Source of the DNA: Terebella lapidaria
Lineage: Eukaryota; Annelida; Polychaeta; Terebellida; Terebellidae
DNA length: 64,000 nucleotides
Assembly (NCBI GenBank): GCA_949152475.1
Contig: OX424568.1
Coordinates: forward strand, 22,357,667-22,421,666
Direction of reading: 5' to 3'
How positions within the stretch are numbered: the stretch's first letter is position 1; each line of letters starts with the position of its first letter. The notes beneath the pieces are model-generated. The model was not told the origin of the DNA and searched no databases. It was given only the letters and a program-made list of their open reading frames with translations. Shown piece after piece: positions 9,648 through 54,665 of this stretch. The position numbers and the translations under genes are program-made.

Positions 9648-9658
9648 GGGGGGGGGGG
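9648..9658 (+). repeat. Poly-G tract, 11 G
   Basis: Homopolymer of 11 G. The same position in copy B (45,696-45,714) has 19 G. Length may be unreliable in either copy. Confidence 0.8.
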
Positions 9659-11457: not shown

Positions 11458-11636
11458 ATATAAATGTAATGTTGTTTTTCCTTTTAATGTTGTCCATCCA
11501 AAAATATATGATAACATCTATATCATTCATGTACTATAACGCGTACATGTTATACGGTAGTTTATTTTTTCTGGTGGAATATAATTGGGCTTGTAAGTGG
11601 TAATTACACTTCTTTTATCTTTTGATATTTATGTAC

Positions 11637-12239: not shown

Positions 12240-13460
12240 GCATTATAATGGGGGACATTTTTACAAATATCTCATTTAATATTGAGATTATAGATTAGGA
12301 ATCAATTGTGGACATACAGGAAATTATATATGCTGAATATTCTCACGACCCTAAATTCGACCTCTGTCCTAATTTTCAAGGTCATGGGGAAAAATGTCTA
12401 ATATCTCGCTTATTATCCACTTTACAGCTTAGGAATCAATTGTGAACATATAGGAAATGATATATTCTGAATATTGTCCTGACCTTGAACATTGTCCTGA
12501 CCTTGACCTTTGACCTACTTTTCATGGTCACAGGACAAAATGGCTAATATCTGGCTTCTTATCGACTTTACAGCTTGGAAATCAATTGTGAGCATATAGG
12601 AAATGATGTATACTGAATATTGTCATGACCTTGAATCCTTTTGACCTCATTTTCGAGGTCAGATAAAAAATGGCTAATATCTCGCTTATTATCAACTTCA
12701 CAGCCTAGGAATCAGTTGTGGACATATAGGAAATTATATATGCTGGATATTCTCATGACCTTGCACTTGACCTTCACCTTATTTTCAAGGTCAGAGCAGA
12801 AAATGGCTAATATATCGCTTATTATCAACTTTACAGCCTAGGAATCAATTGTGAACATATAGGAAATGATATATGTGCTGGTTATTCTCATGACCTTGCA
12901 CTTGACCTTTACCTTATTTTCAAGGTCAGAGCAGAAAATGGCTAATATATCGCTTATTATGGACTTTACAGCCAAGGAATCTATAGTGAACATATATGAA
13001 ATGATATAAGCTTAATATTCTGGCTAATGGTTAATATATCGCTTATTATCAACTTTACAGCCTAGGAATCAATTGTGGACACATAGGAAATGATATATGC
13101 TGGATAATCTCATGACCTTGCACTTGACCGTTACCTTATTTTCAAGGTCAGAGCAGAAAATGTCTAATATTTCGCTTATTATGGACTTTACAGCCTAGGA
13201 ATCTATAGTGAACATATAGGAAATGATATAATCTTAATATTCTGATGACCTTGAATTTGACCTGACCTCATTTTCAAGGTCAGAGAACAAAATGTCTAAT
13301 ATCTGGCTTATCATTGACTTTACTGTTTAGGAATCAATTGTGAACATACAGGAAATGATATAAGCTTAATAGTCTGATGACCTTGAATTTGACCTTTGAC
13401 CTCATTTTCAAGATCAGAGAACAAAATGCCTAATATCTGGTTATTATTGACTTTCACCTC
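12240..13460 (+). repeat. ~130 bp satellite array (copy A), about 9 units
   Basis: Units contain ATGGCTAATATCTCGCTTATT, TTTACAGCCTAGGAATCAAT, GTGGACATATAGGAAATGAT and TGACCTTG...TTTTCAAGGTCA. The GCTAATAT landmark occurs near 12,394, 12,540, 12,670, 12,802, 12,938, 13,160, 13,291 and 13,427, a spacing of about 130-146 bp. Nearly every unit has TGACCTTGA and TTCAAGGTCA. Perfect DR1 spacing TGACCTTTGACCT is at 12,504-12,516 and 13,390-13,402. Confidence 0.9.
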
Positions 13461-13469
13461 CTAATTATT

Positions 13470-13640
13470 TCACCTCCTAATGGCCATTTTGGGGGGGTTC
13501 ATGAGTTTCCCTGTCATTTTTGTTTTCTCTCACTTCGTATGCCTGATATGATTTTCTGTCCCCGGACTATGAGACTGGATAACGGACACTGTTTTGTTTG
13601 CTCGGAATACTTAATACTGGGTATTGATTCCACGTCTATT
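13470..13640 (+). repeat. Dispersed module at the duplication edge
   Basis: The GGTTCATGAGTTTCCCTGTC...CACGTCTATT block, also at 9,150-9,295. In copy B (53,878-54,047) the same block interrupts the satellite, which resumes after it. In copy A similarity to B fades just past this block. Confidence 0.7.
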
Positions 13641-34690: not shown

Positions 34691-34799
34691 GGACCCACTC
34701 AGAGGTTATCGGGATTTTGGACAATCACCAATATGAAATTGTACTTGTGGAAACGAAAATTTCAAATTAAATATTCTCTCTTATTGTGAAATTATATAT

Positions 34800-35505
34800 T
34801 GAGACTGTCTCGGTCATAATTGAGGACACCTGCCAGGCCATATATCGAGGAATCTTATGCCGACGCCCCAGGAATCTGACTTGAAAGCCATTTCTGCTCG
34901 GTTTCAGGAACGCTGGAACTTCTCCAACTGTTTGGGAGCACTGGATGGGAAGCATGTTGTGATGCAAGCGCCTCCAAATTCTGGGACAACCTTTTTCAAC
35001 TACAAGGGCACCTTTGCCAGTCCACTATCGGTTCCGGGTAATCCAAGTAGGTGATTTTGGTAGTGACAGTGACGATGGAATATGTTCCCAATCTTAGCTG
35101 GCGAAAGGAATTTAGAATAAGTCCCTGCCCATTCCAACGGATGACTTTCTGCCCAGGGGAAGGGATTTCCGGAAAATGCCGTATGCCATTGTGGCCCATG
35201 CCGCGTTCCCACTAAAGCGACATATGATGAGGAAATATCCGGGAAGAAACATTTCCCGGAAATAAAAGATCTACAACTACAGACACTGCAAGGGACGTTG
35301 ATTGGTAGAGTGCGCCTTCGGGATCCTGTCCAACCGATGGCGAGTGTTCCGGCGTCCCATCAACATGTTACCTCGCAAGGTGGATGTGGTGGTAGGAATG
35401 TGAGTATCAACCGATTGTTTGCTCCACAACTTCCTGCAGACTCCAGCCGACGCTGGCATCAAAGACGTTTAGTTAGAAGTTTTTACCCCAACGACAACCT
35501 CTAGT
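34800..35505 (+). pseudogene. Decayed Harbinger transposase, copy B
   Basis: Same relic as 110-835. A short deletion at 34,857 removes the DYM codons; otherwise the same motifs in the same broken frames (CLGALDGKHVVMQAPP, VECAFGILSNRWR). Extra base differences after FNYKGTF change the local frame relative to copy A. Confidence 0.85.
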
Positions 35506-35884
35506 TTCCACGTTGACGTTATGACGAGAACATTTTCACAGTTGGAGATTTAGTTTCCGCGTGCCAAGGTCGGTTTTGTTTTTGTTGTCAATCAGCTGTG
35601 AAACCGAGGAAATATGTAATTTCACACTCCTGAGCAAAAAATAGGCCGAGTGAGCGTATAGGTCACTGAAATTTAATACTTTTGGACACAGCTGACCCTA
35701 AAAATAGCGAAATCAAAGTAAATACAAACTTCTTTTATAACGAAGTACTCACATGGGTCTCATCGACTTTGTTATAACGGGAGTTCACTGTAACTAAATT
35801 CAAACGACTGAAAGTGTTGTAAAGTGCCACCTTTTGGGGGTTAGGCAACATTACATGTATTTTGCAAGTTCGCCAAATTGTTGG

Positions 35885-36475
35885 TTGTTACACAACAACG
35901 AAGTTTCAGGGTCATGGTTCATTCCTCAGCTGCACAACTCTCACGCACACATTCGCTGCTTCCCATACTCTCACTGCTAGCTGGTGAATCTCTCGTACTC
36001 TTGTAGTGTAGGAACTCTAGATTTTTAGGCGAGTCTCTAGGACTCCCATAGCAAGTATCTCTCTATGGACTCCAATCTACGGACTCTCTGATCTCTACCT
36101 CACTACTCTCTGATCTTCGGTCTCTGATCTCTCTGATCTCCCTAAACTGTCAAATGTTGGGGGTTCTTATATCGGGACTTCTCCCGTCTGCCAGCCACTG
36201 TGTGAGCCCCTGAACAGGCGGCCCCATCACTAATTGGATGGCATGTTAAAGTCCCCTTAATTGTGATTCGTCCATCGTGACTGCGTGGGCGGTCACATGG
36301 CGAATGTGGACTGTCTTAGGCATTGGGCCTTGGCAGGGTGCTGTGTAAGTGTACTCTACCGGTGGCCACCGTGCTGATGCCTCTGTCTCGCATCAGTGAC
36401 CACCCCCTAACCAGTCAGTGACCCCTTGCCGGGACAGGCTATGTTTACTTTATCATGACTAACTTGGGACATAAA
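35885..36475 (-). mobile_element. Possible solo LTR (copy B)
   Basis: Copy B equivalent of 1,202-1,808, with the same GTGTAACA minus-strand end. It is slightly shorter in the CTCTCTGATCT tract. Confidence 0.3.
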
Positions 36476-36497
36476 ATTTGTAATAGATTACTTTGTT

Positions 36498-36790
36498 CTT
36501 TTCTTAGGGGAGAATATTGGTTTGCTGTCAAATATAAATCCTACTATCATATGCTAATTATTTTGATTATTAGTGAAGTATTAAAGTTATGTTTAACCCC
36601 CAAATTGGAAAGCTATGACTAATAATAGATTTAAGGTTAACGCTTCGATGAGACTTGTCCCTAATGTTACAGATATTATTAATTTACCAATATAATCATA
36701 TTCATAAAAGCTGGGTTTCTACAGTGTGATCTTGATCCCCCCACTAGACACCACCCCTAAATCATATGCAGGTTTATAAAATAGTTAATT
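36498..36790. other. 293-bp block present only in copy B
   Basis: Copy A joins ACTTTGTT directly to AGTAGCCTATT (1,834/1,835). The block has no inverted termini or target duplication and only TT microhomology at its ends, so a deletion in copy A is the simpler reading. Confidence 0.7.
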
Positions 36791-38932
36791 AGTAGCCTAT
36801 TATTTACAGTAGCCTATTAGTAGCCTACTTCGTATATTACCCCCGACATAACCTCTACATGCTCCCCCTTCCCCGGGCCCCAGCAAGCTAGCCCTGCCCC
36901 CGGCTCGTTCATGATTCATAATGACAGAATTTTTTTTCTATTTTCTCTTAATTTTGTAGAATGGACCTTCAACTACTCCACATGCTTGAGGATGAGCACG
37001 ATTCTGACGAAATTCTAAATATAAGTCAAACGAAACAGTCTTGTTGTTGAGAAAATTGTTTCCAACTGTATGAAGTACCATGTTCGGAGGCGCTGCTACC
37101 CGTGAAGTATGCCTTCATTCAGTCCTATCAATTGACATATTATACATAATAATTCTGTGATATCACATAATGAAACCGATGGAAATATCAGGCACGAGAA
37201 CGCTTGATTGTGTCCTCCTCCTACAATAAAATGTAACCTTTATTTTTTGCGCACGAAGCGCACCTGCAGCATTATTGCAACAAGCCTGTTTTTGTGACAG
37301 TGATTTCGTTCGCATTTAGTCGCTTGCCTGAATCATATACGAACATTTTTTGTGAATGATGGAATGGGCAATATGTCCATTTACTCATCAAGGGGCAAAT
37401 CTCAAACATTGAACCCTCTGTCGGTCATCACATGATCAACCGGTTGAAAGAGCTACAGGACGCCAGAGTAATAATTTTATCGATTTTGCATGACACTGAG
37501 TGGACTGTGAGAACGGATAACAGACAGTTTGTTCGTTCGGAACACTTTGTAGTTGAGTATTGATTCCATGTTCGTCCCAGCAAGTCACCATCTGATTTCT
37601 TACCGTCCCATAGATTAGACGCAAAAGAGTAAGCAGATATTGGAAATGAGGCCCAACAGTACCTAATACGTAGTGTGTTGTTTATATGGAGCTATACGTC
37701 ACAGACTAAGGTGAAAGTTCCTGGGTCGGTGCACGAGAAATTCAGAACAGTCTATTATGACACGAGTTCTGGGGAAATGCTTCCTAACTGATGCAGGCAT
37801 GTTTTTTTATGTTTTCCATTGACGGTCGTTGAATCATGGGCGAGAAGAAAATGTCCATCAGAGATATTCAGCTGACGAGGACCTGATGACATGATACCAA
37901 TAATGTGAATCATATACAGACATAATCTTCGAAAGGAAATGAATAAATAATAAAAAACAAATAAAATAAAATAAATACAAAAATAATTCATGCCATGAGA
38001 ACACTCATGTTCGGAAAACTACGAACATTTGTCCCAGCAGAAAAGTTATGACGTCTAGCATCATTGCGATGAGTGACAACGGCCTACTGGGTCCATGCTT
38101 GTTTCTAGACAAGGAGGTCTCATAACTCTTTGGACGACTGCTTTCCGTTCCAACCCAGTATTTCATCTTCTCAGCAAAGGGAAGTAGTATGTGGAAAAGG
38201 CCTTGCAATATGGTGACACTGTGCAGACCTGTATACCTCCTGACTGAGTTTGTCATCTGTGGTGACAATCTCGACAGAAGATTCATGGATAGGTGGGAAA
38301 TCCTTCACTTTTCTTAATGAAATAAAATATATACTATTTTATTACATATAATCACAGGGCACAGCAGTTATCGTGATTCCAGGGGCATTTTATGCTTCTG
38401 AGGGCAGATCCCGTGATTTGGGGGCGAAGTTACGTGATTCTTGGCGAAAAATCATGTCCACACAGATGGGCATGCCTGAATATTGAGCAAGAATGATACT
38501 ACAAGAGTTAAAACAATTATTATTCGAATAATTGGCGCAATTGTTGTAGAGTGCACAGAAAGGGAGATCCTCTGCAGGTTGTTTCCTATATTCGCATAGA
38601 AAGCAACACCAATTCCTGGTAGACTATCGAGGCAACAATGAATACCCAGAAATTATACATTTCGAAGTATTTGGGTGCATTCGAAGGGATTTTAGATGAC
38701 AAAGCATCACTGTTTCCTTTGGTGATGATATTATGGTTAGGAAATGCCCTGGTTTCACGTAAATTGGATTGTTCTGGGAAAATAGATTTCAGAGTCAGAC
38801 AACCATGCTTCTGTGGGCAGAATATTTCTTCACAAAACATATTATATTTCCCATAACGTTTCCATGGGTATTCTTAAAAAACGTTTATTTGTTTTGCTTC
38901 TAATTCGGCAGTGGTTGTTGCAGAATCCCAAT

Positions 38933-39159
38933 GGGGTTCCTGTTTGCCACCAGGATCGCCACCATGTAATTCGAGTATAGATAAACCATAGAAACAGTCT
39001 ACTTTGCCAAATACATACAAAAACGTAATAATGTTACATTCAATTTTTGTCATGTTTGTTTTTGCATAATACAGACAATGGACATGACGTTTTTTGTACT
39101 TCTTGGGCATAATAGACTGTTTTAAAGCCCCAAAAGCACATGGCATCTGCAGGTACCCC
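38933..39159. mobile_element. 227-bp MITE with AT target duplication (copy B only)
   Basis: Left end GGGGTTCCTGTTTGCCA and inverted right end GGGGTACCTGCAGATGCCA form an imperfect TIR of about 18 bp. AT at 38,931-38,932 and 39,160-39,161. Copy A has CCCAATTACAGG with a single AT (about 3,971-3,982). A 2 bp AT duplication is known for the ISL2EU group of the Harbinger superfamily; this assignment is tentative. Confidence 0.78.
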
Positions 39160-40224
39160 ATTACAGGTTATATTATGTGTGACTGGTAACTGGTTGATAT
39201 GCCTGTGTTATCACCCATAAAGCCCACATTAATATTCATCGCCCAAAAAGGGTAAACGAACAATAAACCCTTGGGCCTGGCCGTTTTCCATTCTAAGAGC
39301 GTTAAAGAGTAAATTAACCCCGACTCAATGATTCTAAAGTCTCATTATGTAATATCTCTAAAAAGGACTGCAGCCATTGGTTTTGAATTTAAAGGAGATT
39401 AATAACATGGCATTGCTGTGAAACGCCTTTCCGTAATCTGAGACGGCCAACAGCGGTTTCTAATCAAGTACAGAAATCAAGGTGGGAAACGTAAATTAAA
39501 AATAACCAATCACATGCGCGTATTTGATCGATCGATATGCGGATGAGCCCTGGCGCCACTCAGCTAAGCAGACTGCGACACCAACGGAAAATCGTTGACA
39601 TGGAAAACAAACCGGGTTTGTTGATCATTTTCTTTGAAGATTGGAAGAAACCAACACGTTAGGATGCCATGTTATATTCGGGATAAAACTGTGTTTGGTG
39701 CCAAACATAGCTTCATCCCTTGAATATAATCGTTTTGAATACCAAATGTGGTCGTTTTGTATTTAAGGATTAACGATAAATAAATTCTTTGTTGAATAAA
39801 ATAAAGCTGTAACGTATTTAGTAACAATCTGTTCATGAATAAAGGTGTGTTTTCAACGAAAGCAATTCTTCACCATGCAATTCATGTGAATAAAATAAAA
39901 TGCCAGTTTAAAATGAGTGGACTAAAATATGTTTACCAGATTTTGATGATGACAATAACGAACCTAAAATACATTTTCGGAATAAAAACAAAGTCCCACC
40001 AAATCTTCAACATGACAATCAAGGTGTTGGGCAGGAAAACTGTTACTATTTCCCTCGCGAGGAAAACGTTTCCCCTGTGAGGAAAAACTATTTCCCACGT
40101 GATGAAAACGTACCATTTCCTCAATTCTCCCCGTTGTAGAACGTACTCATATCATTTCGCGTATGACATGGCGACTCATACGGTTTCTGTTACAGGCCCC
40201 CTGTATGTTTACCTTTTATGGAAG

Positions 40225-40560
40225 GTCTGACGAGAGAACAATTGTGACGGATGGGCTCTCTTGGTGTCCTACTGGACATCTCAGCGCAAGGTGTAACTTT
40301 TGGGAGAAGTCTTGTTCGAGGGTTGGGATTAGGCCCGAGGAAGTCCAGGCGTCGTCTCGCCACCTTCAGAGGTTGCTCCGTGGCAGATATCTGAACATTA
40401 ATATCATTGGCATTTGTCACAATACTAGTGGGCCTATCGATAAGAGTTGTCCAAACGTTGGAGCTTATTATGCTATAGAAGCAGTTAGTCCATATTAGAT
40501 TATTGTTTTAAACATTTGAAGTGGACAAGGTTATACCTCGATGTTTTTCTTGATTTTCTT
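40225..40560. repeat. Internal module, first instance (copy B)
   Basis: Counterpart of 6,180-6,560. The preceding junction GTAGAACGTACTCAT (40,135-40,149) is the empty site for the GTAAGT insertion in copy A. Confidence 0.6.
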
Positions 40561-40779
40561 TATGTCTTGAATCGATTGCTTATATTACACTATACAGAAA
40601 AAATGTATATCATATAATTTATAATATAAGTTAAAATAAAGGATATGGATATGGCAGAAAAGAGTGATATTAAGAAGATCATGAAATAGTTTTAAAGAGC
40701 ATTAAATGGAATCATCACTTTAAGTATTTGAAATATATGTTAAATTTCTAATTTAGTTCCGCCGGGAGGATGCCAAGTA

Positions 40780-41225
40780 CCTTATTGCGTCGGCAATTTT
40801 GTTCATTGCCTTACCAGCTTCCCGAGCGGCCTTTCCTGCCACATCAAGCTGCCTCATCAGCAACTCCCTGTTCTCGCTCTTCGACTTGGACACGTGCCTC
40901 ACAGCACCGCGCGACTAGATCGACAGTACTGCGTTGTGATGTCGGTCCTCTCGTTCGGGACCGCTTGGCGATGGGGCCAGCGAATGAAGTGGATGCCGAA
41001 CCAATTTTGGGAACATCCACTTCATCTTCCGGCCCTGTCTCCAAGGGCGCAGAAGAACTTGAAGGTCCTGGTGCGGCAGCCTGCTGTCTTTCTTGAGTGG
41101 CAAAGGTCACACTTGGAACGATGTTTGGCTGATCAAGAAAGATGATGTCCATTACCTCCATGAACGCGAAATCTTTCCTTCTTGCTCCGCTATTTTGATT
41201 ATTGTTTTTGGCCTCTGTATCTGTT
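40780..41225 (-). pseudogene. MYB/SANT-like accessory protein, 3' exon (copy B)
   Basis: Same exon as 6,790-7,225. Copy B lacks the 8-nt insertion and so keeps the natural end (KAMNKIADAIRYLASSRRN then stop). It has lost 5 nt at about 40,875, which puts the helical tail out of frame with the upstream part. Each copy is broken at a different place. Confidence 0.62.
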
Positions 41226-41398
41226 GAGAAACACAATGATATGTATTCTTTGTTATGAAATTACATAGTCATTTATATTGGAACAAGCACTTTATGCTGC
41301 ATTTGGTATTATTCATTAAATAGACGCCAAGGTTTAAAGATGTATTGGAGGCAGTTCGGTGGCATGAATAGAAATACCAATATACCATATACATATTA

Positions 41399-43427
41399 GA
41401 CTTTTTTCGTGTCGGGGTTATTTCGAGGGTGTTTCGGGGGTACTTCGGGGTGAAGTACCGCGGTCAAGTGAGTAGGGGTTTTTGCGCATTGAAGCGTGGC
41501 GAATATTACTCAGATTCATTAATCAGCGCCTGTTAGGCCACACAAAATAGAACCGAACTCTAGCAGAGGTATGCTATACTGAATTTTCTTTTATCTCTAA
41601 TCAGGATTAAAAGGGTGTCAGACGGATTAAATGAGATGTTTCCCGTTGTCGCGCAGTGTTCATGGGAATCCTACTAAAGTCGGCCCAAATACCGTACGTT
41701 ATTCCTTAATACTACTCGTCCAATGAAAACATACCATTTAATCCGTCTCGCACCTTTTCAATCCTTATTGAACATAGAGGAAGGCGCAGGATTTGATACT
41801 TGGGCGCATGTAGCGCAGCTTACTTTTTCTTCTAAATTCAATGAAAATTAAAAATGTGCCAGATTGATTAAATATGGTATACATCAAATGGGTGAGTAGT
41901 ATTAACAGATTGGGCCCAACAGGCTTAGACAACCCTGAACATATCACCTTTTGTAAATTTTATTGCTAAAATATGATATATTTCACCTAAGGTATCTGTT
42001 ATTTGCTCTTTCAGTCACTCTCATCTTTTTATGCACAAATAACATCAGACATTCAGAAATCGTGCAACATCAGAATACTTCATTAATATTGGGCGAAACA
42101 CGCTAAATTAATTTGCAGGGGAAAAATAATGGAGTGCGAAAATTAACATGACAATGGTGAAATATGGTTGGTGATTGTATATTGGTCAACATCAGTTCCA
42201 TTGCAACCAGTTACTTTCATGTGTTTCACCAATGTAACACGAGTTGGTGACATATGTATTTAAGTTTGTTGGTATAATTTGTCGATTTCACCAGAATAAA
42301 CCTTCTGGTGTGATTTTGAGATACTTGTCTATAAAGTAAAGACAGGGGATTCACTATTATAGACCGCCCGTCATAAACACATTTCTTACGACATTTCTAT
42401 TTTCATGATTGTACGACTCTCGTGTTTCTCAGTCTTAGACTTTCGGATCCATTGTATAGCTGGGTTCTGTTATAATGGGTGAATTGTAACAAAATGCCAC
42501 AGGCATCCTCCTTAGGTAATATCGTCAGTGTTTGGCTAGTAAGCAATCGGCCAGTTTCATGATTTGTGTGTGAAAAGTGTAACCTGGAGCAAAATCAATG
42601 ACACTGCGGTCATTAAAGTTATGTGTCTGTGGTTTTAACAGGGCTATCATTAGGCCTATAGGTTTATCACTCATCGAATTTGACCGTTCATGACACTGAT
42701 TTTGTAAGTATCATTCATGAATCACTCCTAAAATATGGATTTGTCTATATCGATATCCATTCGTCAGTAGGCCTATACATATGTAACGTGAGACCAAAGA
42801 AATCAGTGATCCCCAAAAGTCCCCCCGCCCCTAAAAAAGGATCAAAAACACGCTGACCGGCGCTTTTTAATTCGAATGACATTTACTGCTCTGATATACA
42901 ACATTTATCGTAGGAATAGCATATAGCTGTCTGTACTTCCAATGAAACATTATGTGAATATAAAACAGACTACTCCTCCCGACGTGTATAGAACATGATT
43001 CGTTTCATATATAAATATAAACATGCTTTCGCATATCAAATTCTTCTAATTTGAATCCGAATTATAACAAACGACTCAAATCTCGACGGTGACACACTAC
43101 ACGTTCTTGCCAAAAACATGTGTGAGGTGAACACTGGACCATTGAGCTACTGAGACCCGATGAAACAAAAATCCTTGCATAAGTCACACACGGAGATTGT
43201 AATACAATGAACAGTAATAGTGGTAAATTAGTTAGACACTATAAACTGGTTTATAATTTTGTTTGGCCTCAATCTCTGTGGAGTGTCGACTGGAAATCGC
43301 TCTTGTGGGATTAGTTTGCTTTAAGCTGCACGCATCACTGAATAAACCCCTGGGTGACGAGAAGAGGCGATTATTGCGGTACTTCACCCCGAAACACCCT
43401 CGAAATAACCCCGACACGAAAAAAGTC
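41399..43427. mobile_element. 2,029-bp TIR transposon, 5-bp target duplication (copy B only)
   Basis: Ends begin GACTTTTTTCGTGTCGGGG and match as inverted repeats for 41 bp, then again (TGAAGTACCGC) after an 11-nt insertion in the left arm. TATTA lies at 41,394-41,398 and 43,428-43,432; copy A has one TATTA (7,400-7,404). The left arm also holds the small palindrome GGTACTTC/GAAGTACC. No transposase-like ORF in 2 kb, so non-autonomous. The superfamily is not determined. Confidence 0.88.
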
Positions 43428-43616
43428 TATTAAGTCATTTTGGCGGAACGACACAACATTTCCTAGAACGACGAAAACTGGAAATGCTGACCCAGCAGAA
43501 AAAAAATAGAAGCAGATTTTACCGTTAGGATATCTATAAATTGCAAAAATATTACTAAGTAAGTTGATGAGAAAAAAGAAATGGCACTCACTTCTTGATA
43601 AGGTAGAAAAACTTAC

Positions 43617-43763
43617 TGTTCGCTTGACCTGGGGTTCTTTAAATGGCCTTTCCCAGTTCAGCAAAGAGCTTAGTTTTGGAACTGGTCTTTTTCGCCTTGT
43701 CTTTTCTAGCCTTGAATTTCCGTGGCATATCCCTTATTTGGACATCAGTCCGTAAGGATCGAT
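43617..43763 (-). other. Exon-like 147 bp block, copy B
   Basis: Counterpart of 7,588-7,734 with the same borders (ACATTTTCAG and A|GTAAGTTT), the same open frame DMPRKFKARKDKAKK and the same stop. Confidence 0.35.
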
Positions 43764-44944
43764 CTGAAAATGTTAATATATATGAAATAATAATACACGT
43801 ACAATTAAATTTTGGGGGATAAAATTATTCCTAATCAATTTCATAAGCATTCCATCATTCTAAACACGTATTTTTGTTTCAACAAGTAATGTTGATGTAA
43901 CACGTATTAGTAACGAATAGGTTATTGAATTAATTTGAAAACATTAAGACTAATACCGATGTAATTTATAGTACAAATTCGAAAACTAAATCGGTGATCT
44001 ATATTTTTCATTTCACTATTTCAAAGCAACATATTACGTCACACACAAAATATTCAGTTTAAAACCCTGATAAAAACAGACAATATTCACTGTATCCTGA
44101 TGTATGATATAGTGAATGCGTTTCCTTACTACCTCGCAGACAAAATGGTGTAAAAATGTTTTTTCTGCTCCAGGTAGACCTGGTACGCCCTCCCGGGCCT
44201 CCTAACACAAAATTCTGGACCCGCTCCTGGAAAGGTACTGATTGCCAATACTTCTGCCCAGTTTTCTCGTCAAGAGTTATTCGCCTAATACTGAACTAAC
44301 TTGTTTATTTCATCAATATGATTGTCAAGCTCGTGTCTCAAAATTGCTGATGACGATAGGCTGCTAATCGAAAAATGGTAACACCTAGTTTATGTAGGAT
44401 ATATAACAAATGACACCGTTTTGACTGCTTTGAATGTATTGAACACAATAAACAATTGAACACACGTATGTTTTGTACTTGCTTTGTGTGCTATATTCCC
44501 ATTGAATTGATATTACTAACATCATTGTTCTTGCCTAATCGTTGGCGTTAAATATGCTCCAATATCGAGATTTTTCAGGTATTTTGTGCAACGAAATCTA
44601 GTTTTGAAAATGGGTCAAAGTTTGAAACCTCTAGATACTCTTAATATTATGTATTGTTCATTGGTCCTACCCAGACACTATCGACAATTTATGTAGCCAT
44701 ATTCGTGATGCATTACTCAAACTTTCCGTCAAGAGGATAGCTAATGGGAGTTCTTCATTTCATAAGACCTGAAAAAAATCTGTGCCACCAACAGATCCAG
44801 GCCTTTGGTGACAAAATTTTACAGACACAAGTTGTTAGATATGAAACTTGATAGGAAACATAACTGAATAAAAATAGTTATGGTTCTAATCTAAAAAAAA
44901 ACACGAATCTGCTTGAAATCCCAGTCAGCACTGAAGTTCTTAAT

Positions 44945-45400
44945 GAAATCAGAGGAAACAGTCTTGTGGTTGAAAAACTGTTCCCAACAGTATAGTGTAC
45001 CACATTCGGAGGCACTGCTACGGCGGTGTGAAGTATTCACAGTCAAAAAAAGCTACAGTCACCAAATCCATGTCTGCCATGCAGCTAGATCTATTTTCAT
45101 GTTAATTTTGGGGAATTCATGACGGGTGCCACTAGTGGGGCAGGAAATGCTCACTCTTTCCGGAACACCTGATTTCACCTCCTAATTTTTGGAGGTTCAT
45201 GAGTTTCCCTGTCATTCTTGTTTTCTCTCACTTCGTATGCCTGATATGACTTTCTGTCCCCGGACTATGAGATTGGATAACGGACCCTGTTTTGTTTGCT
45301 CGGAATACTTGATACTGGGTATTGATTCCACGTCTATTCTTCCATCAATTGAAGTCCTATCAATTGAAATATTGTACATAATAATTTTGTGAATCACATA
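44945..45400 (+). repeat. Dispersed module, second instance (copy B)
   Basis: Counterpart of 8,920-9,310, with 13 more bases around GATTTCACCTCC at 45,170-45,185. Confidence 0.6.
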
Positions 45401-46024
45401 AAGAAATCGATAGAGATATCAGGCACAAGAACTTTTGATTGTGACCTCTTACAGTGAAATTCAACTTGTATTTTATTATTGCGTCCCAATCTCACCTGCA
45501 GCATTATCCCCTCGTTGTTGAAATGCTTTGGGACCGGGCAGCTTGATACTGGTTCTGTTGAAAAGGACTCCAGCTCGTCCAATGATGTTGATGGTTCCTG
45601 GCGTTTGATAATGGGTTCTCATTGATGACACCGAGAGTGAATAGTTAGCTCTTCTGTTTCATCTCTGGAGTGGGCTTGTTCCTTACGTGGTTCGAGGGGG
45701 GGGGGGGGGGGGGGCGTCCTGTGTCCATGTGACGCCCTAGCGAATGACGTTTCCCGCCGGGAGGACGTTCCGTACTTTCAGACAGTCACCTCAGGGAATC
45801 AGTGCTGAGGCAAACCTCCACTGCGTAACAGAAACGTAGTCCCTGAATAATCATCATGCAACTGAATTAGTTGCACAGACACAGGACATGGAAAAATATT
45901 AATGTTTACCATTATTTTTAAATGAAATTGTGTAGATTAATTTCTAACCGCTATGGACAGGGAATAGGTCTGATTCATTCAGGCAAAGGCTAGTGCCATT
46001 AGGGGGAATTGTTGTCTTCTTTTG

Positions 46025-46335
46025 TGACGGATGGGCTCTTTTGGTGTCCCAGTTGACGTTATCCCAGCGCAAGTTGCAACCTTTGAGATTAAGTCCTGTT
46101 TTGGGGGTTGGGATGAGGCCCGAGGAATTCCAGGCGTCGTCTCGCCACTTTCCGAGGTTGCTCCTTGGCAGACCTCTGAACATCAATATCGTTGGCATTT
46201 GTCACAATACTAGTGGGCCTATCAATGAGAGTTGTCCAAAAGTTGAGCCTATCATGCTGTATAAGCAGTTAGTACATATTAGATAATTGTTTTAAACATT
46301 TGGAGTGGACGAGGTTATACCTAGATGTTTTTCTT
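46025..46335. repeat. Internal module, second instance (copy B)
   Basis: Counterpart of 9,955-10,300, ending about 300 bp before the retrotransposon. Confidence 0.55.
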
Positions 46336-46633
46336 TATGTCTCAATTGAATTGCTCTCCAACCTCGTCTGCGATGTTGACAGCCGCACACACCCCTGTGA
46401 CATACCCGCGAAATTCAGGGAATGAAACTATTCCTGGGTGATGCATTGGCGCAACAGCTGAGTGACAAAAGTAGCACTCTACATAATGATGGACAGTGAA
46501 ACGCCTAACCTGACTTGACAATGGGCATCGGCTTCAACCTCAGTGACGTGTCTGAAAACAGTACATTCTATTGTTTATATTCTGCTGATAACTTGCATTA
46601 CTGCTTCAGTAGAGTATATGAATTTTCCTTCGA

Positions 46634-46685
46634 GTCTATACTAATAACAACAAACTCGTAGTAATTGCTATTAGGCAAGCTTTAT
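46634..46685 (-). repeat. B2 terminal repeat (52 bp)
   Basis: 3' end of the element (minus strand). The outermost base is G 46,634, or A 46,633 if the shared A is counted. The 182 bp between B2 and A2 (46,686-46,867) is unique and non-coding. Confidence 0.92.
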
Positions 46686-46867
46686 TATTGACCGTGAGCG
46701 AGAAACGATTGAATGGCAAGCATACGAAGCTGATTTTACTGATTATAGTAGTACAAGGGTAAAACTGGCCCAGGGTAAAAACCTAGAGATAAAAACCTTT
46801 GATAAGCCAAAATAGGAAAAAACTATAGGAAACCTGTTTCCCAGTACAAACCCTTAAACGAAATTTA

Positions 46868-47087
46868 ATGTTTGCTTTGCGAGAAAGCCGCCTAGAATGA
46901 CCATACATACACTCCAATTTGCCTCAACACTTTAAACTCCGCCCCTTTGGGCTACTCATGCACGACTACCGCCCTGTACACAGGTACAGTCACTCAACTG
47001 AGTACTGACCACTACGCCGTGGACACACCTTTAAACGCTACAGACAATAATTTCCCGCTAATCTTATAGAAACGCGGGAAATATTTA
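46868..47087 (-). repeat. A2 internal repeat (220 bp)
   Basis: Internal copy of A1. Together with B1 it provides the template for rebuilding both ends. Confidence 0.93.
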
Positions 47088-47139
47088 GTCTATACTAATA
47101 ACAACAAACTCGTAGTAATTGCTATTAGGCAAGCTTTAT
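47088..47139 (-). repeat. B1 internal repeat (52 bp)
   Basis: Identical to B2 (46,634-46,685). It abuts A2 with the junction ATATTT-A-GTCTATAC, exactly the sequence expected if the element's two ends were joined in a circle. Confidence 0.93.
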
Positions 47140-47193
47140 AGAATAAACGAAAGAAAGAGTACACAGTGAAGTAATCATACTTGATCTTAACTT

Positions 47194-47754
47194 CTAGATA
47201 CCTAGATTTTTAGTGACCTTCAACCTTGTGGAAACAGGATCTTTGACGTAACGATTAACAGCATCACTCCGCCACCTGCCGTGGCGCTTGAACAACCTTT
47301 CATCGATTCCGGCGTCAGCAGCCGCGGTAACTCCACTAGCACGCAAAGAGTGCAAACCGATGTCAAGCTCTTTGGGTACAACTTCATACAAACGAGATAG
47401 CAAGGTCTCCCGTACCCTGGTATAACTTAAACGCTTAATTTTACATCTAAAACCTACTTTTGACTTCGTTCTATACATGGCTCTGAACAAAAAATTCGAA
47501 TCTTTCATATCAATCTCAAACATATTAACATAACGCAACAAAGCATTGTATGGACAAGCAGTAGAACCTGTTTTTGCAATCACCACTTCATTACCATCTC
47601 TAAACTGGTCCGTTTTCGATTTTCTTATCTTGATCTTAACATAATCCAACTCAAAACTCACATCTGAGCACATGATACTGCAAAGTTCATCATATCGCAA
47701 GAAACCAGCATACGCAGTATAACAATCATTGCAAGATCTCTTACAACAGAACAT
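47194..47754 (-). pseudogene. Tyrosine recombinase, catalytic part
   Basis: The 186-codon frame has the whole active site: GFLRYDEL (Arg 20), KSKTDQ (candidate Lys 45/47), LHSLRAS (His 135, Arg 138), HGRW (His 158, Trp 161) and NRYVKD (Tyr 169). The first about 12 residues are out-of-frame noise; the natural sequence comes from the N-terminal part in the neighbouring frame. The enzyme would integrate the circular DNA intermediate, explaining the lack of target duplication. Confidence 0.88.
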
Positions 47755-48443
47755 TCTGAAGAGTTAACATACATTTCGAACAATAGTTTAATATGCTCTG
47801 GAGAAATAACATCTTTCTTACCACGTCCGATTGATGGACGCCGTTTACTGTAAGACAACAAATCCTTGACATGAGGATTATCCGTAGGGTCTACATATTT
47901 AAACAGATTATGAATCCACTTTATACTGTACACAAATGTGGTTACAACAGAATGAGACTTATTGGTGCTGATGAGATGAACAACGAAAAGAGCAACATGC
48001 TCTGGACTACATGGTAAGTAAGGTTTTCCGTGCTCTAACATAAAAACCTTAAACTTCTTAAAGTAACACTCGTATTTATGTGTAGTGCTGTTGCTGCGGG
48101 CACCTAGCAAAAACCCCGGCATCTTATGCGCCAATTCCTTGAAATAGACGTCATCCTCCAGTAAGCGAGCCCGCTCCGTCAAGGCTTCAGCCAAACCACT
48201 CACAACGCCTGCCAAGATCAAAAAGTAGCATGTTATTCTAAAATCTGAAATGACATGCCAACATTGCAAAATTAATACTTTCATTACTAAAAACGCCATT
48301 CTCGCCGAAACCTGGTTGAATGTTCGCATTTTTAGGGAAAACGTTTCTGTCACGAATATAGCCGTCAACCCACAGCAAAGGCCAAAATGGTGCAGATTTC
48401 CAGACTGGAACAACCAGGATACTGTTAGCTTTTTCTTTTTCAA
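47658..48443 (-). pseudogene. Tyrosine recombinase, N-terminal part
   Basis: Overlaps the end of the RT ORF in another frame, normal for these elements. The recombinase-like part starts around VVSGLAEALTERARLLEDD (about residue 88). It shows the SAM-like N-domain: LGARSNSTTHKYECYFKKF and SPEHVALFVVHLISTNKSHS. The last residues (SVVRDLAMIVIL) should lead into the catalytic domain, but the frame shifts near 47,715-47,735. Confidence 0.8.
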
Positions 48444-49848
48444 TCTTTCTTATCACGCCAGTGATAATCTTAGGTGGTGGCACCAGCCAGTTAGTGTCTT
48501 TAGACCAGTCCTCAGACATACCATCAACGGCTTCTGTACCTGCCAACCAGACCTTCGAATTGAAACGGTCACACTTAGTGTTGTAGCTAGTAGCAAATCT
48601 GTCCACGGTACATAAGGCCCACCTGGACGTTAACTCATCGTACTTCATTTTGGACACCTGCCAATCGTCACTATCCTTATATGCTTCACGGCTCAATTTA
48701 TCTGCCATTACGTTCATCTCTCTCGGAACCCACACAGGACAAACGATAATCTCGTGTTTGTCCAACTGACGGTGAATGTCGCAACAAATCGAATGCAAAT
48801 CTTCATTCATGCTTCCTTTTTGAATTATGCTTACAACATTTTTGCTGTCTGTGTGCCACTTTACACACCGCCCCTCCAGGGCCTTTGCCATCCGAGACAG
48901 TACCTTGCTGACTGTTTTGAGCTCTCTCCACGTGGAGCTTTTGCCCGCCTCTGAGGCCGACCAACACCCCGTGTACTTTTTGTAAGTATCGCCCGCCACG
49001 AAAGCACCAAAACCGACCGAAGACGCATCACTGTATACAGAGAATCCGGCAACCTGCTTGTCTATGAAAGCACTACCGTTCAGCAACTCAACGTTATCTA
49101 CCCAGAATGACAGTTCATCTACGGCAGAGCTCGTCAGAACGACCTTACTGTCCCAGGACCATTTGGACTCAATAACCCTGTGACAAAACTTCGTGCGCCT
49201 CAGCGCGATACTGCCAACAGCAGATGAAGCTGATATTATTTTCCCAACAACACTGGCAAGGAAACGGGCTTTCACCCAATTGTCCGACCTAATAGCGGAA
49301 TCCATAATATTCTGACATTGACTTTTAATATCTGAAACCCTCTTCTGAGTAATGGACAACGTACCACTTCGAAAATCGAAAACGTTCCCCAACCATACTA
49401 GGGAAGATCTCGGGTTCCAATCGGACTTGTCCTCGGCCACCAGAAAGCCGAACTCGGCTAGATCTTCTTTGATAATTTTAGCGGAAGCTTTTGCAGACAA
49501 CATATCGTCCGAAACCACTAAACCATCGTCGAGATATAATACCACTCTTATGCCCTTGGCACGCCAAAGCTTTACCAGATGCCGAAGAACCTTAGTGAAA
49601 ATATAACCCGCCGTTGAAAGTCCGAAGGGTAAAACATTAAAAACGTAGAAATTTGAATCCCAGCAGAACCCCAGAAATTTCCGGTGATCGTCAAAGATAG
49701 GAATATGGTGATAAGCCGACTTGAGGTCGAAAGTGAAACCGACATCACCTCGCTTAACTAGTTTTAGAGCTACTGACACGTCTTCGTAACGAAACTTAAC
49801 CTGCCTAAGACATGGATTAATATGCCTACAGTCGAGAACCAGCCTCAA
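48238..49848 (-). CDS. Reverse transcriptase, RNase H and methyltransferase-like ORF
   Basis: 536 codons. RT: FDLKSAYHHIPI with catalytic Asp 41, FGLSTAGYIF, and the YLDDG box with Asp 107/108. RNase H: VYSDASSVGFG (Asp 274), STWRELK (Glu 309), WHTDSKNV (Asp 334), MADKLSRE (Asp 383), i.e. the full D-E-D-D set. After it, VDRFATSYNTKCDRFNSKVW, NWLVPPPKII and VVPVWKSAPFWPLLW form the methyltransferase-like region of DIRS/PAT elements (about 415-493). The N-terminal RT part lies in the preceding ORF because of the 2-nt break near 49,850. Confidence 0.9.
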   Translation of the reverse strand: MRLVLDCRHINPCLRQVKFRYEDVSVALKLVKRGDVGFTFDLKSAYHHIPIFDDHRKFLGFCWDSNFYVFNVLPFGLSTAGYIFTKVLRHLVKLWRAKGIRVVLYLDDGLVVSDDMLSAKASAKIIKEDLAEFGFLVAEDKSDWNPRSSLVWLGNVFDFRSGTLSITQKRVSDIKSQCQNIMDSAIRSDNWVKARFLASVVGKIISASSAVGSIALRRTKFCHRVIESKWSWDSKVVLTSSAVDELSFWVDNVELLNGSAFIDKQVAGFSVYSDASSVGFGAFVAGDTYKKYTGCWSASEAGKSSTWRELKTVSKVLSRMAKALEGRCVKWHTDSKNVVSIIQKGSMNEDLHSICCDIHRQLDKHEIIVCPVWVPREMNVMADKLSREAYKDSDDWQVSKMKYDELTSRWALCTVDRFATSYNTKCDRFNSKVWLAGTEAVDGMSEDWSKDTNWLVPPPKIITGVIRKIEKEKANSILVVPVWKSAPFWPLLWVDGYIRDRNVFPKNANIQPGFGENGVFSNESINFAMLACHFRF

Positions 49849-50966
49849 CTTGTGGAAGCCACGGTTAATGGGTTAACTACAAGAGGTGGTTTGCTCACTT
49901 TGTGTACATATCCTTTAAGAAGCAAATTGTTGATCTCTTTTGTTACAAATTCAGGATGAGCTCTTGCCGAAGCATTGTTACGCAACACACCAGAACTTGG
50001 AATAGTTTTGAAAGGAATTTTGTAACCAGTTTCTACTAAACTAGTGACAAACATTGAAGCTGAAGTAGATTTCCACTTATTAATACTACATTTGAGCCTA
50101 CCTACTGGAGACAATACATTGTGACCGGCCAAACACCCGACCTGACTTTGAAACGAACGCTTATTATTTATACATTTGATTGTATCACATTGAGATTCGT
50201 TCAGCTTGACATTACTTGTACTTATCTTGTCGGTTTGACTTTTGCCCGAAGCAGCGACCTGAGTAGACTGGGGACTCTTCCTGCTGTAACAGTTCGCCCT
50301 CCAGTGCCCTGGCTTGCCGCACTCGTAGCAAACTCCAGGTCGCCTGGCGTTGGTATTGGACGTTCGTTGCTCCCGCGCTGCTCCTGAAGACGCGCCGGCG
50401 GTGCTAGCCTGTGGGTCGAACGGTCGCCTTCTACGAGCTTTCAGGGAAGCCTCCTTCATCTTGCGCTTGGCACGTGCTTCAGCCTTGAATATTCGTTTTT
50501 CGTCTTCAGAGTTCGAAGCCAGCTCATGAGCCTCATACTCGTCCACGATGCGCCAACCCGCCTCGCTCGAGTCGGCCAACTTGATGTGTTTGTTTCTACG
50601 AGTTAGAGCATCCAAGGCATCCTCAAGTTCGCTGTAGGCCCTCTTCAACGAAGCCCTGCTTTCCGGTCTAACTTCCACATTGTCCAGTGATTTACACGCG
50701 GCTCGTGTGTGCGTGTGTACTTCAGAGTTTACACTGTACTGCTTGGCATTCCCCTTGTGTTTGAAGTCGAACTTTCCATGAGATTCGGAAATGCGCTTGT
50801 CCACTAAACGCTCAAGGTTATCTAAAAGACATTCGTTTGATTGTTGTACAGCCGACTTGACTATGTCAAGTCGGCTGTACCGGTGTCCTGCTCGCTCACA
50901 GACATGGTCAAGTTCGATGTTTGCTTTGCTAGAAAGCCGCCTAGAATGACCATACATACACTCCAA
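49845..50966 (-). CDS. Gag-like ORF with CCHC zinc knuckle, running into RT
   Basis: 373 codons. Acidic then strongly basic middle (KAEARAKRKMKEASLKARRR, about 161-180), then one zinc knuckle CYECGKPGHWRANC at about 213-226 (C-X2-C-X4-H-X4-C), then a linker. The last about 35 residues (TKEINNLLLKGYVHKV, PPLVVNPLTVAS) are the start of the reverse transcriptase domain. The frame stops 3 codons later where 2 extra nt break continuity with the next ORF at 49,847. Nucleic-acid-binding structural protein by analogy. Confidence 0.85.
   Translation of the reverse strand: MECMYGHSRRLSSKANIELDHVCERAGHRYSRLDIVKSAVQQSNECLLDNLERLVDKRISESHGKFDFKHKGNAKQYSVNSEVHTHTRAACKSLDNVEVRPESRASLKRAYSELEDALDALTRRNKHIKLADSSEAGWRIVDEYEAHELASNSEDEKRIFKAEARAKRKMKEASLKARRRRPFDPQASTAGASSGAAREQRTSNTNARRPGVCYECGKPGHWRANCYSRKSPQSTQVAASGKSQTDKISTSNVKLNESQCDTIKCINNKRSFQSQVGCLAGHNVLSPVGRLKCSINKWKSTSASMFVTSLVETGYKIPFKTIPSSGVLRNNASARAHPEFVTKEINNLLLKGYVHKVSKPPLVVNPLTVASTS
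50846..50880. repeat. Perfect 16-bp stem-loop inside gag
   Basis: GTACAGCCGACTTGAC, loop TAT, GTCAAGTCGGCTGTAC. It lies in gag codons about 29-41 (RYSRLDIVKSAVQ), 87 nt after the ATG and just downstream of A1. In the element RNA it would form a very stable hairpin. Confidence 0.9.
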
Positions 50967-51134
50967 TTTGCCTCAACACTTAACTCCGCCCCTTTGGGCT
51001 ACTCATGCACGACTACCGCCCTGTACACAGGTACAGTCACTCAACTGAGTACTGACCACTACGCCGTGGACACACCTTTAAACGCTACAGACAATAATTT
51101 CCCGCTAATCTTATAGAAACGCGGGAAATATTTA
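50917..51134 (-). repeat. A1 terminal repeat of the YR element
   Basis: 218 bp at the 5' end of the element. It matches A2 (46,868-47,087, 220 bp) except one G/T and a 2-nt indel (CTTAACTCC versus CTTTAAACTCC). It contains the gag ATG (50,966-50,964), so the first 17 codons lie inside the repeat. The inverted pair TTTCCCGC...GCGGGAAA is near the tip (51,096-51,129). Confidence 0.93.
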
Positions 51135-51533
51135 TTACTTCAAAAAGCTACAGTCACACAAAAGCTGGATCCTACACCGACCATGACGGAACACTGAGGA
51201 TCGCCCTGGACCAATAGAGTCTAGATCGAGTGGTGCAGGGGTGATCTGGGAGATACGGAAAGGACGACCCTTGTCCTTGTATCAACATCCCGCTCCAACA
51301 CGTCAGCACTACGGAAAAACAAGGATCCAAACACAGCAACGCCACGGATCAGTCACTGTTCCAACATGGATCTTCCAGGACCATCCAGGATTGACAAAAT
51401 AGTCTCAAACCATCCCGGACGACCCCGGCAATTTTAAGCAGTTTCAAACATGTGTGTTTTTGTCCCAAACCACATAGGATTACCAAGGACAATCCAGGAC
51501 CATCATGGACCCAGCACGAACCATCACCATCAT

Positions 51534-51645
51534 CTACACATTTCTTGGTCAAGGGGAAACTGGAGTGGCCACCCAAAGTTATCATGGTCCATGTGGGTTC
51601 CGGCTTTATGTGACTGGCTTAGTTATTGACATGCCACAAATGATT
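51534..51645. other. 112-bp block present only in copy B
   Basis: Copy A joins CACCATCAT directly to GAATGCCC (10,973/10,974). No terminal repeats seen; insertion or deletion undecided. Confidence 0.65.
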
Positions 51646-52073
51646 GAATGCCCAAACATAAAACAATAATTTATTTAATAATAAAAAGTGTAATTATGTA
51701 AATATGTTTTTTTTACCTACAGGCAAAATTTGCTCTGCATGACGTTTATTTATTTATTTTTTATTCCGCAATCTATGGCATTGTAAACGAACCTTTTCTT
51801 GACATTATTCCACCCAGATTAGCTGGCCAGATTAAGTTTTCTATCTGTAATTTTGTATTTTACACCAAAGTAAATATAAATAAATACCTGAAATATAAAT
51901 GTAATGTTGTTTTTCATTTTAATGTTGTCCATCCGAAAATATATGATAAGATCTATATCATTCATGTACTATAACGCGTACATGTTATACGGTAGTTTAT
52001 TTTTTTGGTGGAATATAATTGGGCTTGTAAGTGGTAATTACACTTCTTTTATCATTTGTTGATATATATGTAC

Positions 52074-52275
52074 CTCGTCAATGTTGGCCTCGTATGCCAT
52101 GGAAGAAATTCGTTTTTCCTGGTCCTTCCCAGATGTCCGACCCATTTCTTGCTTGATTGTTTGCCTGTAAACGTCAAAGAGAGCCTGTTTTGCCACAGAC
52201 GAAAAAGTCATCAACAGGCAAGAAAGGGCCTGGTACCTGGACGTCTTCAGGAGGTCAAATGCCTTATCCTGTGAC
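52074..52275 (-). CDS. Candidate internal exon, unknown protein (copy B)
   Basis: Counterpart of 11,637-11,838: 202 nt, same phases, acceptor AATTCTTCAG preserved although the intron just beyond it differs, donor GAG|GTACAT. About five amino-acid changes from copy A and no stop. Confidence 0.4.
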
Positions 52276-52729
52276 CTGAAGAATTGTTATGAAACAAGGT
52301 ATCGGAAATAACTAAAGAATAAATAACTCGCTAATTTCAAGATTATTATTTTACTTTCCACAAAGAAATTTGGTTTTACGATTGAATCTCTCTGAAATTT
52401 TGCACAAAAATGCCTAAAAGTATTACAAGAGGGAGGTATTTTTTTTTATTTTCGCAATTTGTTTCAAAATGGCGGCTATTTTTGACGGAAAACGGACAAT
52501 TTTTGGATTTTGACGGTCGTTTTCTCAGAATCTGTTCAATAGCTTCTCTTATTGATGCATAACATTCCTCATATGTACACCTGTGACATGTATCTAAGTT
52601 TCGTTGCATCGCTCGTTGCATCGCTCCTTGAATCGCTCAAAGTGGGTCATTTTGGGCTCAAACTCGGCTCAAATGAGACTTTCCCATGTTGAACTCTCGA
52701 ATGCATTATAATGGGGGACATTTTTACAA

Positions 52730-54665
52730 ATATCTCATTCAATATTGAGATTATAGATTAGGAATCAATTGTGGACATACATGAAATAATATATGCTGAA
52801 TATTCTCACGACCCTAAATTCGACCTATGTCCTAATTTTCAAGGTCAAGGGGAAAAATGTCTAATATCTCGCTTATTATCCACTTTACAGCTTAGGAATC
52901 AATTGTGAACATATGGGAAATGATATATTCTGAATATTGTCCTGACCTTGAACATTGTCCTGACCTTGACCTTTGACCTAATTTTCATGGTCACAAGACA
53001 AAATGGCTAATATCTGGCTTCTTATCGACTTTACAGCTTGGAAATCAATTGTGAGCATATAGGAAATGATGTATACTGAATATTGTCATGACCTTGAATC
53101 CTTTGACCTCGAGGTGAGATGAAAAATGGCTAATATCTCGCTTATTATCAACTTTACAGCCTAGGAATCAATTGTGGACATATAGGAAATTATATATGCT
53201 GGATATTCTCATGACCTTGCACTTGACCTTTTCTTTATTTTCAAGGTCAGAGCAGAAAATGGCTAATATATCGCTTATTATCAACTTTACAGCCTGAGAA
53301 TCAATTGTGGACATATAGGAAATGATATAAGCTTAATATTCTGGCTAATGGCTAATATATCGCTTATTATCAACTTTACAGCCTAGGAATCAATTGTGGA
53401 CATATAGGAAATGATATATGCTGATATTCTCATGACCTTGCACTTGACCTTTACCTTATTTTCAAGGTCAGAGCAGAAAATGGCTAATATATCGCTTATT
53501 ATGGACTTTACAGTCTAGGAAACTATTCTCATGACCTTATTCTCATGACCTTGCACTTGACCTTTACCTTATTTTCAAGGTCAGAGCAGAAAATGGCTAA
53601 TATATCGCTTATTATGGACTTTACAGTCTGGGAAACATATAGGAAATGATATAAGCTTAATATTCTGATGACCCTTGAATTTGACCTGCCATCATTTTCA
53701 AGGTCAGAGAACAAAATGTCTAATATCTGGCTTATTGTTGTATTTACTGTTTAGGAATCAATAGTGAACATATAGGAAATGATATAAGCTTAATATTCTG
53801 ATGACCTTGAATTTGACCTTCGACCTCATTTTCAAGATCAGAGAACAAAATGTCTAATATCTGGCTATTATTGACATTCACCTCCTAATGGCCATTTTGG
53901 GGGGTTCATGAGTTTCCCTGTCATTTTTGTTTTCTCTCACTTCGTATGCCTGATATGACTTTCTGTCCCCGGACTATGAGATTGGATAACGGACCCTGTT
54001 TTGTTTGCTTGGAACACTTAATACTGGGTATTGATTCCACGTCTATTACTGCTTGGGAATCAATAGGTAACATATAGGGAATGACATATGCTGAATTTTC
54101 TCGTGACCTTGAATTTGACCTTTGACATCATTTTCAAGGTCAGACCACAAAGTGGCTAATATCTCGCTTATTATCGACTTTACAGCTTGGGAATCAATTT
54201 TGGGCAGGTGGGAAATTATATATGCTGAATATTGTCATGACATTGAAATTGACCTTTGACCATGTGAACATGTATTAAATGACATATGATGAATATTCTG
54301 GCTACCTTGGATTTGATCTTTGACAATATTTTCAAGGTCCCGGAACAAATTGGCTAAGATCTAAGACTAAGATCTAAGGCTAAGATCTAAAACTTTCCCA
54401 AGCTTCTGGGCTTATTTTTTAGTTTAGGAATTAATTGTGCAAATGTAGGGAATGATGTATGCTGAATATTTGGATGACCTTGAATTTGACCATTGACCTT
54501 ATTGTCAAGTCACAGGACGAATTTGCTAATATCTTCCTTGTAAATGAATTTACAGCTTAGGAATCAATTGTGGACATATGGGGAATGATATGCATGTATG
54601 CTGGATATTTCCGTGACCTTGAATTTGACCAGTGACTTTATTTTCAAAGTCATGGGACGAAACAG
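52730..54665 (+). repeat. ~130 bp satellite array (copy B), about 15 units
   Basis: Same units as 12,240-13,460, continuing past the duplicated part. Some units are truncated or spliced (53,340-53,360; 53,520-53,560), and a dispersed module interrupts at 53,878-54,047. A perfect DR1 motif is at 52,967-52,979. Ends in TATATA sequence at 54,678-54,703. Confidence 0.9.

Follow-up and report, generated by a model that had tools for sequence, protein, structure and literature searches.

A retrotransposon of the Pat1-like kind (order DIRS), with its internal repeats lying beyond the recombinase gene, very probably inserted precisely into one copy of a duplication that already existed in the genome of the polychaete Terebella lapidaria. 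Element and duplication both lie in a stretch of 64,000 nucleotides from contig OX424568.1 (hereafter, the window). No target sequence was gained or lost in the insertion; the element begins with /GTCT and ends with TTTA/ (a slash marking the bond), and other copies share these ends. Present ideas on how retrotransposons that carry a tyrosine recombinase (YR) choose and join their targets rest largely on models. The clean pair of empty and filled sites, together with 26 left and 22 right junctions, gives a base-level integration profile of one Pat1-like lineage: a single switch bond, no target duplication, a weak preference for A/WTM, and little or no identity required. The profile speaks against a general rule of 3-bp identity, raises a one-strand model without proving it, and opens the recombination step to tests in vitro on short substrates.

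The window contains a direct segmental duplication of about 13.7 kb, whose two copies (A and B in Table 1) differ, block by block, by Kimura two-parameter (K2P) distances of 1.8-4.7%. Copy B is interrupted by the 4,501 bp of the element between the equivalents of 10,573 and 10,574. The filled site reads ...TTTTCCTTCGA/GTCTATACT...GAAATATTTA/TTACTTC..., with bonds at 46,633/46,634 and 51,134/51,135, and the empty site reads ...TTTTCCTTCGATTACTTC..., with its bond at 10,573/10,574. The two agree to the base: no target base is lost or duplicated, and a single A is ambiguous. Between the filled and empty flanks, the 273 bases aligned on the left contain 6 mismatches and a single 1-base indel, and the 399 bases on the right show a K2P distance of 0.031. 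An initial annotation of the window had proposed a pre-insertion site within it and an insertion without target duplication, and the pair of sites bears out both. It had placed the uninterrupted target at 10,565-10,582, where the start is right and the end is two bases too far (the 16-mer occupies 10,565-10,580). When the 361-bp empty locus was compared with the assembly (761.6 Mb, 438 contigs), four matches were obtained: the locus itself, the two halves split by the element, and a 72% partial match on contig C6. By this search, copies A and B are the sole empty/filled pair of the target locus in the assembly, with the caveat that a DNA search of the assembly may miss very common words.

Comparison of copies A and B is able to reveal a target duplication where one is present, since two other insertions show them. 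The first (2,029 bp, 41,399-43,427, only in copy B) has perfect inverted ends of 41 bp and has duplicated 5 bp of its target (TATTA); its empty site lies at about 7,404 in copy A. The second (866 bp, 3,990-4,855, only in copy A) has the ends GGCCAAAA and TTTTGGCC with TTA at both sides, and copy B is uninterrupted at 39,161. The single A shared by target and junction is weak by itself: when the position is shifted within these flanks, the mean run of identity is 0.68 bp, and nearly half of the shifted positions have a run of at least 1. What lies beyond chance is that both ends of the element coincide with ends of its split repeats.

Those repeats are arranged on the plus strand as a short repeat (52 bp), a spacer (175 bp), a long repeat (227 bp, of which 220 are shared), a second short repeat, the coding body, and a second long repeat. 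The internal junction ...ATATTTA/GTCTATACT... at 47,087/47,088 equals the end-to-end join of the element's own ends, just as the initial annotation had it. Read along the coding strand, the order becomes long repeat, open reading frames (ORFs), short and long repeat, spacer, short repeat, which matches the order A1-[ORFs]-B1A2-B2 given in passages of PMC6681497 and PMC8547959.

Table 1. Positions of the duplication, the target bond, and the parts of the element within the window
Feature	Position	Strand	Description	Basis
Duplication copy A	1..13662	+	Without element; may reach left beyond the window	Self-comparison
Duplication copy B	34691..54069	+	Holds the element	Self-comparison
Empty target bond	10573..10574	.	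Uninterrupted, in paralogous copy A	Paired-site comparison and assembly search
Whole Pat1-like element	46634..51134	genes -	4,501 bp; plus-strand termini GTCT...TTTA	Empty/filled pair, repeats, same termini in other copies
Terminal short repeat	46634..46685	+	Initially labelled A1; B2 in the published coding-strand nomenclature	Identical to 47,088-47,139
Spacer, short to long repeat	46686..46860	+	Also in full-length and solo copies
Internal long repeat	46861..47087	+	Initially labelled B1; first 7 bases not in terminal copy	46,868-47,087 98.6% identical to 50,917-51,134
Internal circle-junction copy	47087..47088	.	ATATTTA/GTCT	Repeat comparison
Internal short repeat	47088..47139	+	Initially labelled A2	Repeat comparison
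Tyrosine recombinase, C-terminal catalytic piece (putative)	47194..47763	-		PF00589, E 3.7e-5, 24.0 bits, under curated 27.1
Recombinase motifs	FLRYDEL 47,703-47,683; HSLR 47,352-47,341; HGRW 47,283-47,272; NRYVK 47,256-47,242	-
Tyrosine recombinase, N-terminal piece (putative)	47658..48449	-	Separated from the C-terminal piece by a frame break	ORFs
Reverse transcriptase, RNase H, Dam-like methyltransferase	48238..49872	-	YLDD 49,536-49,525
gag with CCHC knuckle (putative)	49845..50972	-	Knuckle 50,330-50,289; frame break ahead of the reverse transcriptase	PF00098, 20.3 bits against cutoff 20.8
Terminal long repeat	50910..51134	+	Initially labelled B2	Repeat comparison

Copies related to the element were found, through queries with its repeats, on many contigs of the host assembly. 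In family 1, both the internal junction and the body are found in six copies (the window copy and those on contigs C16, C2, C1, C9, and C4, with parts of the body missing in C16, C9, and C4), and there are seven solo copies that consist of a short repeat, a spacer, and a long repeat (one of them truncated at the left, one diverged). Left out of this count was L023, a diverged copy whose junction was found without a body. In family 2, whose body is about 65% identical, four copies have the internal junction, and there are six distinct solos. A third family is represented by one copy, L064, whose reverse transcriptase (RT) shares about 45% amino acid identity and which has the same anatomy and the same start, /GTCT. 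Unbroken layouts of two ORFs are found in L028 of family 2 (901 and 355 amino acids) and in L064 (908 and 361).

The ends of these copies agree with those of the window copy. All 26 left ends counted read host/GTC, and all 22 right ends counted read TTTA/host, though the ends were picked by alignment to the termini, so that their agreement is partly by construction. One copy, L037, was dropped before counting, as it represents the same insertion as L034, and the ends of others were dropped as broken or diverged: L018 (left), L022, L023, L025, L026 (right, TTCA), L039, L040, and L041. Only left ends were taken from the truncated copies L014 and L019 (first piece) and only a right end from L024; the stretch examined for L029 has no right end, and for L035 and L036 a typed string served to place the left ends. 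Three places with right ends (C6:43555232, C15:122446, and C12:21416412) were left out of the junction counts. A census by pattern is freer in this respect: it allowed 3 mismatches anywhere and included internal junctions, and it found starts with G in 21 of 21 instances and ends with A in 37 of 37, and the reversed-pattern controls gave no matches. Thus, as regards the different termini and the target duplication that the initial annotation had suggested looking for in further copies and alignments, readable ends match (broken ends having been left out), and among the 20 copies with two ends not one shows an exact target duplication of 2 bp or longer, where mismatched flank pairs would give about 1.5 in 20 by chance. 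The empty site is clean for the window copy only, and the precision of the other 19 of the 20 is deduced from their lack of repeats.

The host bases at the junctions show a weak target preference, A/WTM (that is, A, the bond, W, T, and then A or C). Position -1 is A in 19 of 26 copies (p 8.8e-6), +2 is T in 16 of 22 (p 4.3e-5), and -8 is A in 17 of 26 (p 2.4e-4), each p value being uncorrected and taken, at every one of 30 positions, for the best of the four bases; position +3 is A or C in 21 of 22. The shared A is therefore a preference and not a requirement, as 7 of the 26 copies have another host base. This rules out an obligatory A. The shared A does not fix the crossover, and the proposal of the initial annotation that the paired locus narrows it to one base finds no support in that form. 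The contiguous run of bases that target and circle junction have in common is likewise short in the 20 two-ended copies: 0 bp in six, 1 in nine, 2 in two, 3 in two, and 4 in one. Since 15 of the 20 thus have 0 or 1 base of identity, the 3-bp identity of DIRS1 is not needed in this lineage. As a general rule for the lineage it is rejected, 3 of the 20 copies reaching 3 bp (with the empty sites of 19 of the 20 deduced).

Host sequence switches to element sequence at the A/G bond in the copies counted, including those in which the neighboring bases mismatch on either side. It is the copies jointly, and not the single empty/filled pair, that place the switch at this bond. The most likely course of the insertion would be as follows. 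An RNA copy would have been reverse-transcribed, with the internal junction serving as the template that restores the element's ends, and the element's tyrosine recombinase would then have joined the junction of the two ends to a target for which there is a weak preference, with no need for several bases of identity.

Several observations weigh against the precise insertion of a Pat1-like element, beyond the selected ends and the single clean empty site. Next to the solo on contig C15 (L015), a local host repeat is a second candidate for an empty site, and it fits only if a 1-base indel is allowed. The scores of the window copy for Dam, CCHC, and recombinase are all under Pfam curated cutoffs, as are those of L028 for Dam (23.7 bits) and CCHC (19.3 bits), and the recombinase ORF of L064 has no Pfam match, although tblastn does match it to the recombinase of the window. 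No circle was observed here. Finally, two inserts of 57 nucleotides (L027:457 and L042:433) fit no explanation given here. Both start with the element's /GTCT, continue in the internal repeat order, and end at the same base, and the one in L027 has a 23-bp host duplication at its sides.

Perhaps the joining is one-sided, in that one strand only of the junction reaches the finished insertion, for instance because the substrate is single-stranded complementary DNA (cDNA) or because a heteroduplex is always resolved to one strand. We regard this as possible, though on balance doubtful. In 17 of the 20 two-ended copies the host has a base other than G at +1, yet the left junction has the element's G; in 6 of the 20 it has a base other than A at -1, yet the right junction has A. 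If an overlap reaching +1 were resolved 50:50, the chance of this outcome would be 2^-17 by simple arithmetic. A classical two-strand exchange over a mismatched overlap, followed by unbiased replication or repair, should give some joins displaced by the length of the overlap, and there were none in the counted copies. Moreover, in a circle there would be two junctions that are locally identical, and permuted copies would result if the internal one were used; yet the repeat order is one and the same in all 11 copies in which junction and body can be read (six from family 1, four from family 2, and L064). Malicki reportedly proposed in 2020 that DIRS retrotransposons have linear single-stranded cDNA intermediates, which would fit. 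On the other side, displaced joins may escape detection, because left ends were chosen for how they align to the terminus. The left end of L039, an old one, carries T at +1, and its divergence allows no judgement; that of L040 is likewise altered, and the 57-nucleotide inserts start in the internal order. The same picture would result from biased mismatch repair or a very short overlap, so we infer one-sided resolution rather than observe it. Circular cDNA of DIRS-1 has been verified by experiment, according to a passage of a review (PMC5633606), which argues against one-sided resolution and weighs slightly against the precise insertion proposed here.

A narrower proposal, and a rather improbable one, is that Pat1-like integration is single-strand joining: the recombinase would exchange one strand of a junction that forms only at the ends of the cDNA, and replication would fix the join. 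If true, this would account for the constant switch bond in the face of mismatches and for the dispensable identity, as well as for the absence of permuted full-length copies despite an identical second junction inside the element. The missing Pfam match of L064, the selection of the counted ends, and the verified DIRS-1 circle weigh slightly against this proposal too.

The possibility that the two copies are alleles set in tandem by the assembler, and not paralogues, is unlikely. Their K2P distances are within the range of heterozygosity that some invertebrates reach, but 13,663-34,690 has no direct collinear match with 54,070-64,000 among the 120 best self-matches listed, and there are private insertions in both copies.

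A crossover of the DIRS1 type, in which the recombinase exchanges strands over about three identical bases common to circle and target, with the shared A as part of the identity, seems quite unlikely. It is the published model for DIRS1-like elements, a passage of PMC3266345 having a 3-bp junction recombine with an identical genomic triplet. The mean identity observed, 1.15 bp, does exceed the control value of 0.68 bp, and 3 of the 20 copies share 3 or 4 bases as against 4.6% of control positions. But 17 of the 20 have fewer than 3 contiguous bases and 6 have none, the empty sites being deduced except for the window copy, and L064, the single copy of its family, shares no base between target and circle junction.

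In the window copy, one substitution and one 2-bp indel separate the two long repeats over some 220 bp, changes that would have come after the insertion, and the short repeats are identical. The nearest of the copies compared has 2 differences in 454 positions of the end segment. Since most of the duplicated flanks have diverged further than the long repeats have, the insertion probably came later than the duplication, though the numbers are small. That copy A instead lost the element by precise excision is very improbable: tyrosine recombinases are reversible in principle, but integrated ends would not make two full junctions, and insertion after duplication is simpler given the divergences (again, small numbers). 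The initial annotation called the element young, which holds relative to the duplication and sits poorly with two frame breaks, one at the boundary of gag and RT and one inside the recombinase. Judged by its reading frames, the window copy is now defective through these breaks, which would also have followed insertion. Inside gag, at 50,846-50,880, there is a perfect 16-bp inverted repeat with a 3-nucleotide loop; another copy differs there, and the repeat may be a template-switch mutation of the window copy.

By its domains and repeats the element would be classed as Pat1-like, a known kind of element, in keeping with the PAT type of the initial annotation. RT and RNase H are present (PF00078, E 2.4e-16, and PF13456, E 5.9e-5, both above cutoffs in the window copy). 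The Dam-like methyltransferase domain (MT; PF05869) scores under the cutoff of 28.1 bits in the window copy (E 3.4e-4, 20.8 bits) and in L028, and above it in L064 (33.0 bits). The recombinase is oriented like RT, both genes being on the minus strand in the window, with a score under the cutoff; the gag zinc finger scores just below its own (Table 1), and the split direct repeats have the arrangement A1-B1-A2-B2. The N-terminal recombinase piece gave no Pfam recombinase match in a Pfam scan, and the motifs of the C-terminal piece presumably have the usual catalytic roles. L028 has RT and recombinase (PF00589, 35.4 bits) above cutoffs, and L064 has RT and CCHC (25.9 bits) above them. The inverted YR and missing zinc finger of Kangaroo are not found here. 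Ngaro has no MT domain (PMC4157794), unlike the present element, whose Dam-like segment is weak in the window copy and above cutoff in L064; solo AB repeats are reported for Ngaro in a passage of PMC8547959, as solos are found here. DIRS1-like elements, as described in part of PMC3266345, resemble the element in their domain set, internal junction copy, and insertion without target duplication, but have inverted terminal repeats and 3-bp identity, where the present element has direct repeats at its termini and mostly lacks the identity. CCHC gag, RT/RNase H, MT, co-oriented YR, and split direct repeats are common to the element and the sea-urchin form of Pat1-like elements (PMC4157794). The same paper places internal repeats between MT and YR in the nematode Pat1 form and in Kangaroo; as they are not there in this element, the sea-urchin form is assigned by elimination. 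To what is known of Pat1-like elements, the lineage of the window copy may add a target preference and joins with 0-1 base of identity.

The precise solo copies, about 454 bp, comprise a short repeat, a spacer, and one long repeat, and they probably arose when the two long repeats recombined with each other. Six of the seven solos of family 1, compared at variable sites, group with different full-length lineages, as expected if long repeats recombine. The variable sites rule out that the solos are one small amplified family. Minicircles, first resolved and then integrated, would be indistinguishable as a source.

DIRS-like or related RTs seem abundant in the host genome. An RT search gave 7,222 candidates, of which 80 were scored, and most of those 80 belong to a distant group with 27-31% identity, near-equal scores, and long open frames; the split-repeat layout is absent in L065, one member of this group. 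Beyond the host, the RT piece had one 30% match (60 residues) among viral contigs, on a contig whose ORFs of at least 120 amino acids are not DIRS-like by eye, and 8 pattern matches among genome contigs, with no confirmed relative. The recombinase piece had 6 pattern matches among viral contigs, none a confirmed relative, and phage records gave no match. Scans of the window for tRNA and for Rfam families (at the gathering threshold) found none.

The duplication has some further features of its own. An insertion of about 307 bp at 5,829-6,136 is present only in copy A and belongs to a repeat family found also near 17,718, 32,177, 58,386, and 62,424. Satellite-like tandem arrays, with many offset self-matches, lie at 12,266-13,454 and 52,729-54,674, at the right edges of both copies, where their homology stops.

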